From positions 186,001 to 250,000 of the forward strand of contig NZ_QJKB01000003.1 in the NCBI RefSeq assembly GCF_003201815.1: a stretch of 64,000 nucleotides of DNA, written 5' to 3'. A program made the translations under genes and the position numbers. Each line of letters opens with the position of its first letter. The first letter of the stretch is position 1. Shown in pieces: positions 800-2,115 of the stretch. The DNA comes from Undibacterium pigrum. GTDB lineage: Bacteria; Pseudomonadota; Gammaproteobacteria; Burkholderiales; Burkholderiaceae_D. The notes beneath the pieces are model-generated. The model was given only the letters and a program-made list of their open reading frames with translations, made no database searches and was not told where the DNA came from.

Positions 800-1228
800 T
801 TAGATGTCGAGTACTTGTGGTTGCTGAGCTGCGTGCGGATGTGTTGCATCTGCATAGACTTTCAGCTTCTTGATCATTGCATAGCCGAGTGGGCCTTTAG
901 GCAACATGCCTTTAACAGCTTTCTCGAGTGCACGACCTGGAAAACGCTCTTGCATTTTCTGGAAATTTGTTTCATAGATACCGCCTGGATAACCAGTATG
1001 ACGGTAGTATGTTTTGTTCAGAGCTTTAGTACCAGTCACGCGCAGTTTGCCTGCGTTAACAACAACGATAAAATCGCCTGTGTCTACGTGTGGTGTAAAT
1101 TCTGGTTTATGTTTGCCGCGTAAACGGAGTGCCACTTCGCTGGCAACACGTCCGAGTACTTTATCTGTCGCGTCAATCACGAACCAGTCGCGCTGAACCT
1201 CATGGCCCTTAGCGGAAAAGGTTTTCAT
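800..1228 (-). CDS. rplM: 50S ribosomal protein L13
   Basis: Ribosomal protein L13, 142 residues as in Escherichia coli, an early-assembly protein of the large subunit that binds 23S rRNA. Recognisable stretches are [19 protein letters not shown] near the start, then [26 protein letters not shown] and [12 protein letters not shown]. The ATG at 1228 is preceded by AGGATTCAAC, a good ribosome binding site. It is the first gene of rplM-rpsI and is served by a well-formed sigma-70 promoter at 1348-1376, giving a 5' leader of about 110 bases. Confidence 0.98.
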
Positions 1229-1376: not shown

Positions 1377-1431
1377 GAACTGTTTAATTTTTGTGCAGAC
1401 TTTGTTGGAACTATGCAGAATCAGGGGCAAA

Positions 1432-1530
1432 AAAAACCCGAAGACTGGCTTCGGGTTGAATCCACCAAAGGAGTAGGTGGAGGAGACAATTGCGAGGCTA
1501 GTTGACAGACTTGCTATTAACTAACCGATG
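1432..1530 (-). ncRNA. Small RNA with exposed anti-Shine-Dalgarno-like sequence
   Basis: An RNA of about 99 nt is predicted from signals visible on the minus strand: a sigma-70 promoter (1536-1564), then three stem-loops. Stem 1 is GGUUAGUU/AACUAGCC (1526-1496). A single-stranded UCUCCU segment follows. Stem 2 is CCACC/GGUGG (1480-1462) with loop UACUCCUUU. The last is a terminator stem AACCCGAAG/UUCGGGUU followed by eight U. The loop and linker are complementary to Shine-Dalgarno sequences and resemble the 3' end of 16S rRNA. There is no open reading frame with a start. It resembles, from memory, small toxic RNAs reported from Burkholderiales, but that identity is not established here. Confidence 0.7.
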
Positions 1531-1535
1531 AGTCA

Positions 1536-1564
1536 ATAATAGGATAAGAAATTGTGCAGTGCAA
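1536..1564 (-). promoter_or_regulatory. sigma-70 promoter of the small RNA
   Basis: Minus strand: -35 TTGCAC (1559-1564), exactly 17 bases, -10 TATTAT (1536-1541), predicting a start at about 1529-1530. The position fits the first stem of the RNA, which begins at 1526. Confidence 0.7.
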
Positions 1565-1619: not shown

Positions 1620-1659
1620 TTGACGCTGGTATTTTATTTATTAACGAGAGGGTGGAAGT

Positions 1660-2115
1660 ATGGAAGCTACAGTGCGCTGGACAGGTTCATCCGGCATGTC
1701 TTTTCTGGCAGAGACCGGTTCTGGTCATGCGGTTTTAATGGATGGCGCGCCCGATGGCGGTGGCCGCAATCTGGCACCGCGCCCCATGGAAATGGTATTA
1801 CTGGGAACAGGCGGCTGTTCTGCCTATGATGTCGTGCTGATTTTACGCAAGGGCAAACAGGATATCCGTGGCTGCGATGTCAAGCTGACAGCAGAACGTG
1901 CAGACACTGAGCCCAAGGTCTTCACGAAAATCAATTTCCACTTTGTCGTGCGCGGCCGTCAACTGAAGCCCAATCTGGTTGAGCGTGCGATCAAGTTGTC
2001 ACATGAAAAATACTGCTCGGCATCCATCATGCTGGCCAAGACTGCAGAGATGACACATAGCTTCGAAATTATCGAAGACCTTGACCTGCCCTCAGAACAT
2101 CAGGCTGCAGGCTGA
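1660..2115 (+). CDS. OsmC/Ohr family protein (YhfA-like)
   Basis: A 151-residue member of the OsmC/Ohr superfamily, small homodimeric proteins that often reduce organic hydroperoxides through two cysteines. Both cysteines are present: C53 in LLGTGGCSAYDVV and C119 in SHEKYCSASIML. The N-terminal antiparallel sheet region (VRWTGSSGMSFLAET) fits the family. The overall pattern is nearer the YhfA-like branch than OsmC or Ohr proper, so the substrate is unknown. A GAGAGG site precedes the ATG. Its last 16 bases overlap the end of the convergent BPSS1780-type gene. Confidence 0.88.
   Translation: MEATVRWTGSSGMSFLAETGSGHAVLMDGAPDGGGRNLAPRPMEMVLLGTGGCSAYDVVLILRKGKQDIRGCDVKLTAERADTEPKVFTKINFHFVVRGRQLKPNLVERAIKLSHEKYCSASIMLAKTAEMTHSFEIIEDLDLPSEHQAAG

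Follow-up and report, generated by a model that had tools for sequence, protein, structure and literature searches.

The locus described here raises the question which signal controls a small RNA (sRNA) of an already known kind. The window, a stretch of 64,000 nucleotides (nt) from Undibacterium pigrum, carries between rplM and a divergent gene for an OsmC-like protein an sRNA gene of the 'double-hairpin' family RF02278 (Betaproteobacteria_toxic_sRNA in Rfam); the new part is a candidate controlling signal for RNAs of this family, a PhaR-type operator. Regulators of sRNA accumulation in Burkholderia cenocepacia have been called 'yet unknown' (PMC5688073), and for Cupriavidus necator a 2021 review (PMC8401924) states that the part played by riboregulation in the synthesis of polyhydroxybutyrate (PHB) 'remains undeciphered'; here and below, statements on published work refer to the parts of the sources consulted. 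A PhaR operator, if true, would make both questions testable and would couple slower growth to the storage of carbon, with a bearing on bioplastic production. We estimate at roughly three in four the probability that the window sRNA, an RF02278 RNA probably of the ncS27 type of B. cenocepacia, stands under a PhaR operator that is relieved by PHB, and blocks chosen mRNAs.

The sRNA matches RF02278 with 62.5 bits (cut-off 50, E 3.4e-10) over the full model (positions 1-64 of 64), and this is the sole Rfam match at the gathering threshold in the window. An earlier note, made from the letters of this stretch, had mentioned toxic RNAs of the Burkholderiales and suggested a covariance search against Rfam; these RNAs proved to be RF02278 itself. 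The sRNA shows the family architecture of two hairpins, a CU-rich linker and loop, and a terminator at the end, and the host is betaproteobacterial, the closest named relatives of the OsmC-like neighbour being Undibacterium. The promoter TTGCAC-17-TATTAT, given in the note with no strand, lies on the minus strand. The unit of about 99 nt with three stem-loops and a U8 terminator described there agrees with a predicted transcript of 99-102 nt, if transcription starts 5-8 bases past the -10 hexamer, and with a predicted fold of three hairpins plus a U8 tail. The plus-strand fold of the region likewise exceeds shuffled sequences in stability (z -2.56), as mirrored stems would lead one to expect. 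Both the middle-hairpin loop UACUCCUUU and the linker UCUCCU are present in the minus-strand sequence, and since the 3′ end of the 16S rRNA of the same genome reads CACCTCCTTTCTAG, CUCCUUU within the loop equals its anti-Shine-Dalgarno core. The proposal of an sRNA presenting an anti-Shine-Dalgarno-like sequence is thus supported, an idea already in print for relatives.

Alignment of 52 hand-chosen relatives showed that columns 2-9 (GTCTCCTC, the linker) are invariant in 52/52. In the middle stem, the five outer pairs can form in 260/260 cells, with two of the five changing on both sides and three invariant. The covariation score and the count of doubly changed cells were reached by 0/500 shuffles. 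At least as many doubly changed pairs (2) occurred in 179/500 shuffles, however, and at least as many further pair types (3) in 468/500, so that these two counts are not unusual. The terminator hairpin was excluded from this count, as the MAFFT alignment moves it between groups. The arms of the 5′ hairpin are retained, with paired changes as judged by eye, in some Undibacterium rows.

RF02278 is present above the cut-off in four copies in this genome, the window copy and three on another contig. Among the matches listed, it was found in 43/43 genomes of a genus sample (above the cut-off in 32/43) and above the cut-off in 126/145 genomes of a family-level sample, where matches per genome reach at least 21 at E 0.001. 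In an order sample it was detected at E ≤ 0.001 in 86/130 genomes, and above the cut-off in 52/130.

The -35 hexamer forms the left half of TTGCACTGCACAA. This sequence differs at one of ten positions from the published PhbF/PhaR site when that site is taken in the opposite-strand orientation. For Herbaspirillum seropedicae the PhbF site TG[N]TGC[N]3GCAA was derived by MEME, and one such site was footprinted (PMC3206438); the core of the PhaR site in Sinorhizobium meliloti is YGCRNYGCR (PMC12542648). The upstream regions of 42 syntenic copies are conserved from the -35 hexamer through TTGC(A/G)N(T/C)GCACAA, a pattern similar to the PhaR site with its two triplets. The reading of TTGCAC as a plain -35 hexamer in the earlier note thus stands as far as the hexamer goes, but falls short, as the hexamer is also half of a conserved PhaR-type site. 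The genome itself encodes PhaR (PF07879 at C1:1011983, 107.2 bits), and the pattern TTGCRNYGCACAA occurs in it at nine places, compared to two for the reversed pattern as control. Two of the nine lie in tandem before a phasin gene, and one belongs to the window sRNA. TGCnnnGCA sites lie shortly upstream of each of the three phasin genes detected in this genome.

The distribution of the site in relatives was examined in named loci fetched via the OsmC-like protein. Out of 80 loci, 4 lacking rplM were excluded, and in 44 of the remaining 76, which hold both genes, the sRNA lies between the divergent osmC-like and rplM genes (42 recognised by the string TGTCTCCTC and two further ones by Rfam, another search round giving none extra). 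YGCRNYGCR was detected within 120 nt upstream in 41/42 syntenic named loci (shuffles: mean 2.3, maximum 7; downstream control 1/42) and in 32/32 rplM-linked loci from genome searches (shuffle mean 1.7, downstream 1), 31 of which carry TTGCRNYGCA, the remaining one (L026) having an edge site only. It also precedes 11/12 Undibacterium copies that are not linked to rplM, at -21/-22; shuffles give 0.3 on average, and the downstream control gives 1. Copies of other genera not linked to rplM constitute a built-in negative class: only 1/19 carries the site, which is chance level (shuffle mean 1.3, downstream 2). TTGCRNYGCA within the osmC-rplM gap was found in 42/44 loci with the sRNA and in 0/32 without it; YGCRNYGCR likewise occurs in 42/44 gaps with the sRNA. 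Scoring the published H. seropedicae motif at up to one mismatch on both strands gave 41/42 upstream and 1/42 downstream for the syntenic loci, 11/12 upstream for the Undibacterium copies without rplM, and 1/19 upstream and 1 downstream for those of other genera.

For the order-wide table, one (best) RF02278 copy per genome and 130 nt of upstream sequence were used for 83 of the 86 positive genomes (G000, G013 and G028 excluded), and 10 of 18 loci (L304-L313), being additional hits within those genomes, were left aside. The site was present upstream of 38/52 copies in PhaR-positive compared to 3/24 in PhaR-negative genomes. PhaR-positive genomes carry it at 29/33 rplM-linked and 9/19 other copies, PhaR-negative ones at 1/6 and 2/18, respectively (Fisher p 0.0012 for the rplM-linked class and 9e-7 for both classes, relatedness uncorrected). 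Counted by family, with phasin-borne copies credited with the site of the phasin gene and four mixed families excluded, the site occurs in 21/24 PhaR-positive versus 1/10 PhaR-negative families (p 4e-5). The published motif was found upstream of 20/33 rplM-linked copies in PhaR-positive and 1/6 in PhaR-negative genomes (1 downstream in the latter), and upstream of 13/19 (3 downstream) and 4/18 (1 downstream) of the other copies. In lineages lacking PhaR, most RF02278 copies stand under promoters with no such site.

In the family sample, again among the matches listed, all 129 PhaR-positive genomes out of 145 have RF02278 at E ≤ 0.001, and all 11 genomes with no RF02278 match also lack PhaR; five further PhaR-negative genomes carry RF02278, four of them less than 90% complete. 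A strict co-occurrence of PhaR and RF02278 was considered and dropped, as the association is one-sided in the family and loose in the order.

The same pattern marks the phasin loci. In the family sample TGC(A/G)N(T/C)GC(A/G)C(A/C)A (TGCRNYGCRCMA) was found shortly upstream of the phasin domain in 31/32 loci among the matches listed, a count made with no shuffle control; the sequence of the exception (L218) ends 58 nt upstream. Furthermore, in seven PhaR-positive genomes from four families an RF02278-like match lies 0-66 nt past a phasin stop codon. In six of these genomes a pair of sites spaced 56-59 nt apart precedes the phasin gene, and five of the seven matches adjoin phaR; an element behind a phasin gene would need no separate operator. 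Three of these hosts had themselves contributed to the phasin profile by which the seven were found. Pfam confirmed the five phasins checked (L250-L254, with L262 and L290 outside this check), one of them, L251, barely (25.2 bits, the cut-off being 24.9).

How could such a control work? PhaR is a PHB-sensing repressor that is released from DNA on binding PHB. In H. seropedicae it represses phasin promoters (PMC4873508), from which we infer the direction of control. Lacking PHB, PhaR would cover the -35 region and keep the sRNA off. Under carbon excess, as PHB chains form, the granule would attract PhaR, and the sRNA would be produced along with the phasins. The linker UGUCUCC and the loop UACUCCUUU would then pair with the Shine-Dalgarno regions of chosen mRNAs and block the start of translation, as is in print for relatives and, by analogy, presumably holds for the window sRNA, which in turn would slow uptake and breakdown of further substrates. 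This would fit reports that double-hairpin RNAs are higher in glucose medium (PMC5688073, with no tie to PHB in the parts consulted) and accumulate at growth arrest.

A predicted-duplex test of linker and loop against 52 start regions of the window gave a mean of -13.3 kcal/mol, whereas stretches from inside genes gave -11.5 kcal/mol (p 0.001). As Shine-Dalgarno strength was one of the grounds on which starts had been selected, the comparison leans towards this result. The start regions of the phasin genes of this genome reach merely -12.8 to -13.6 kcal/mol. The start region of the OsmC-like gene (1630-1674, plus strand) gave the second-best predicted duplex among the 52 (-21.9 kcal/mol), and this divergent neighbour may be a target.

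Precedent for repression of an sRNA by PhaR is provided by MmgR of S. meliloti (alpha-r8), which is negatively controlled by PhaR (AniA) (PMC12542648, PMC8401924). In contrast to the window sRNA, MmgR belongs to a different RNA family and to the Alphaproteobacteria, lowers phasin levels and is under NtrC control too. We consider it quite likely that the RF02278 RNAs of the Burkholderiales largely represent the riboregulatory arm of a PHB sensor, reached via an operator of their own or via the 3′ region of a phasin mRNA, by which storage would damp the translation of uptake and catabolic genes; this link would have an origin independent of the alphaproteobacterial PhaR-MmgR pair. In the open-licence literature, among the matches listed, no link between PhaR and RF02278 was found, the main ncS27 paper of 2019 (Microbiology 165:1135) lying outside this coverage.

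The closest known RNA is presumably ncS27. We take BCAL3348 of B. cenocepacia to be rplM; it appears among ribosomal protein genes (PMC5688073). There ncS27, a separate transcript of 92 nt, is encoded by the minus strand and flanked by BCAL3348a and BCAL3349 (PMC4603805). Like the window sRNA of about 100 nt it belongs to RF02278 and lies near such a gene, and its 5′ part can be processed off. The two differ in genus and in the opposite-orientation gene BCAL3348a that adjoins ncS27, and PhaR control goes unmentioned for ncS27 in the parts consulted. By place, the window sRNA is probably the counterpart of ncS27, although BCAL3348a intervenes and the ncS27 neighbourhood is taken from its description in the literature. 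Four RF02278 RNAs of H. seropedicae (Hsnc059, 063, 086 and 107) measure 93-115 nt, of which 24-47 nt precede the core (PMC7011215).

Further RNAs resemble the proposed mode of action. The authors describing S17 of Bordetella pertussis report a close resemblance of the 5′ part of its short form to RF02278, and its CU-rich sites pair with start regions; it directly represses a sigma54 activator in that species. Unlike the window sRNA, it is encoded next to a glycosyltransferase gene on one side and coq7 on the other; it is processed from about 190 to about 67 nt and is higher in virulence mode. The NmsR sRNAs of Neisseria meningitidis, likened here by description only, likewise present unpaired CU-rich stretches complementary to ribosome-binding sites (PMC5688073), but differ in genes and targets.

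Several observations weigh against PhaR control of the window sRNA. The operator partly coincides with the -35 hexamer, which would be conserved regardless, and no TTGCnnnGCA occurs in the 3.2 kb surrounding the genome's own phaR. YGCRNYGCR was found in one of the 32 gaps lacking the sRNA, L042 and L090 carry the sRNA with no site, and the published motif is also met downstream of 4/12 Undibacterium copies not linked to rplM. In the order-wide set the downstream control is high in the rplM-linked class of PhaR-positive genomes (9/33, shuffle mean 3.4, maximum 8; 9 also for the published motif), the site is missing from 4/33 rplM-linked and 10/19 other copies of these genomes, and co-presence is weakly linked (62 genomes with both, 24 with RF02278 only, 25 with PhaR only and 19 with neither). 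The phasin-borne elements score 30-40 bits, under the Rfam cut-off. Relatives are non-independent samples, and relatedness inflates all counts. As for action on the cell, S17 left exponential growth of Escherichia coli unimpaired.

Alternatively, the RF02278 sRNA might be transcribed from a housekeeping or stress promoter of the ordinary kind, the conservation of TTGCRNYGCACAA reflecting the -35 hexamer or another, unrelated regulator. In favour of this, TTGCAC is fair as a -35 hexamer, 18 of the 19 copies of other genera away from rplM do without the site, as noted above, and the downstream control is high in part of the order-wide set. Nevertheless, conservation extends beyond the hexamer and varies at the free positions of the operator (R, N and Y), the same pattern stands before the phasin genes, the site tracks the presence of PhaR, and some elements are located behind phasin genes. 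We regard an ordinary promoter as unlikely.

The family name, which derives from toxicity in E. coli clones (PMC5688073, PMC7011215, PMC4603805), and the identity of the loop with the 16S tail could also speak for a true toxin, whose anti-Shine-Dalgarno sequence would act without specificity and stop translation in general. Overexpression of ncS27 is reported to attenuate growth, its CU-rich regions being predicted to cover ribosome-binding sites (PMC5688073), and a fitness study of B. cenocepacia H111 lists ncS03 and ncS27 as detrimental in two host models. The effects of ncS27 vary with the substrate, however, touching amino acid and carbohydrate use, and numbers per genome that reach at least 21, among the matches listed, are tolerated. 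Targets in relatives, mostly predicted, are transporters and genes of amino-acid and carbohydrate metabolism (PMC5688073). A toxin thus appears improbable, and of the 'general translation modulator' of the earlier note the modulator remains, while 'general' looks too broad given the selected targets indicated for relatives. An attenuated 5′ leader of rplM-rpsI controlling ribosomal protein synthesis in cis, as might be suspected from the shared strand, the distance of 200 nt, the widely kept synteny and the listing of BCAL3348, called a ribosomal protein gene, among genes with short 5′ untranslated regions (PMC5688073), was dropped as very improbable, since the sRNA has a strong intrinsic terminator of its own, further copies lie elsewhere (three of them within 1.2 kb in this genome), rplM persists in 32 loci lacking the sRNA, and ncS27 is a separate transcript (PMC4603805).

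The preferred reading, a PHB-relieved PhaR operator in front of the RF02278 sRNA, would assign the elements of the transcription unit as follows.

Table 1. Elements of the sRNA transcription unit (minus strand, within 1429-1564) and its neighbours, in positions of the window.
Feature	Position	Strand	Basis
Candidate PhaR-type operator TTGCACTGCACAA, overlapping the -35 hexamer	1552..1564	(-)	Match to published site; conservation
-35 hexamer TTGCAC	1559..1564	(-)	Sequence; 17-base spacer to -10
-10 hexamer TATTAT	1536..1541	(-)	Sequence; recurs in Undibacterium-type syntenic loci
sRNA gene	1429..1530	(-)	RF02278 match 1488-1428; start placed 5-8 bases past -10
5′ hairpin	1496..1526	(-)	Predicted fold; lies outside the Rfam model
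CU-rich unpaired linker UGUCUCC, first anti-Shine-Dalgarno-like segment	1482..1488	(-)	Alignment
Middle hairpin UCCACC-UACUCCUUU-GGUGGA, loop as second anti-Shine-Dalgarno-like segment	1461..1481	(-)	Rfam match, fold, covariation count
Intrinsic terminator, hairpin + U8	1429..1457	(-)	Sequence and predicted fold
rplM (ribosomal protein L13)	800..1228	(-)	Pfam PF00572; 200 nt downstream of sRNA end
OsmC-like protein gene, divergent neighbour	1660..2115	(+)	Pfam PF02566

The three other copies in this genome (G000:C2:572196-573379, L002-L004) are clustered within 1.2 kb. In each of them the core follows a PhaR-type site at a distance of about 22 nt, so that they might possibly be made directly in a short form. 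TTGCRNYGCACAA precedes other genes of this genome too (L148, L149 and L156, near position 1501), which look to us like leuC, an inorganic pyrophosphatase gene and a gene for a sulfite-oxidase-like protein. In S. meliloti, ppa has been proposed as a PhaR target (PMC12542648). Phasin promoters often carry two sites 56-57 nt apart (L158, L159, L195, L196, L200, L202 and L203), and in L255 two sites 57 nt apart stand before an RF02278-like sRNA adjoining phaR. Long osmC-rplM gaps of 549-640 nt, with neither an RF02278 match nor an operator, occur in Undibacterium and relatives (L052, L056-L061). Some PhaR-negative lineages (L236, L238 and L240) retain an rplM-linked sRNA, there with an apparent inverted repeat, seen by eye, directly before the core.

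PhaR control of every RF02278 copy was rejected, since 18/19 copies of other genera not linked to rplM lack the site; several of them share AAATTGG upstream. By eye, six loci of this class (L010, L011, L012, L017, L018 and L020) show an AATTGG-like motif 50 bases before the core followed by a CTATACT-like -10 hexamer, which suggests that a second regulator may act on the RF02278 family.
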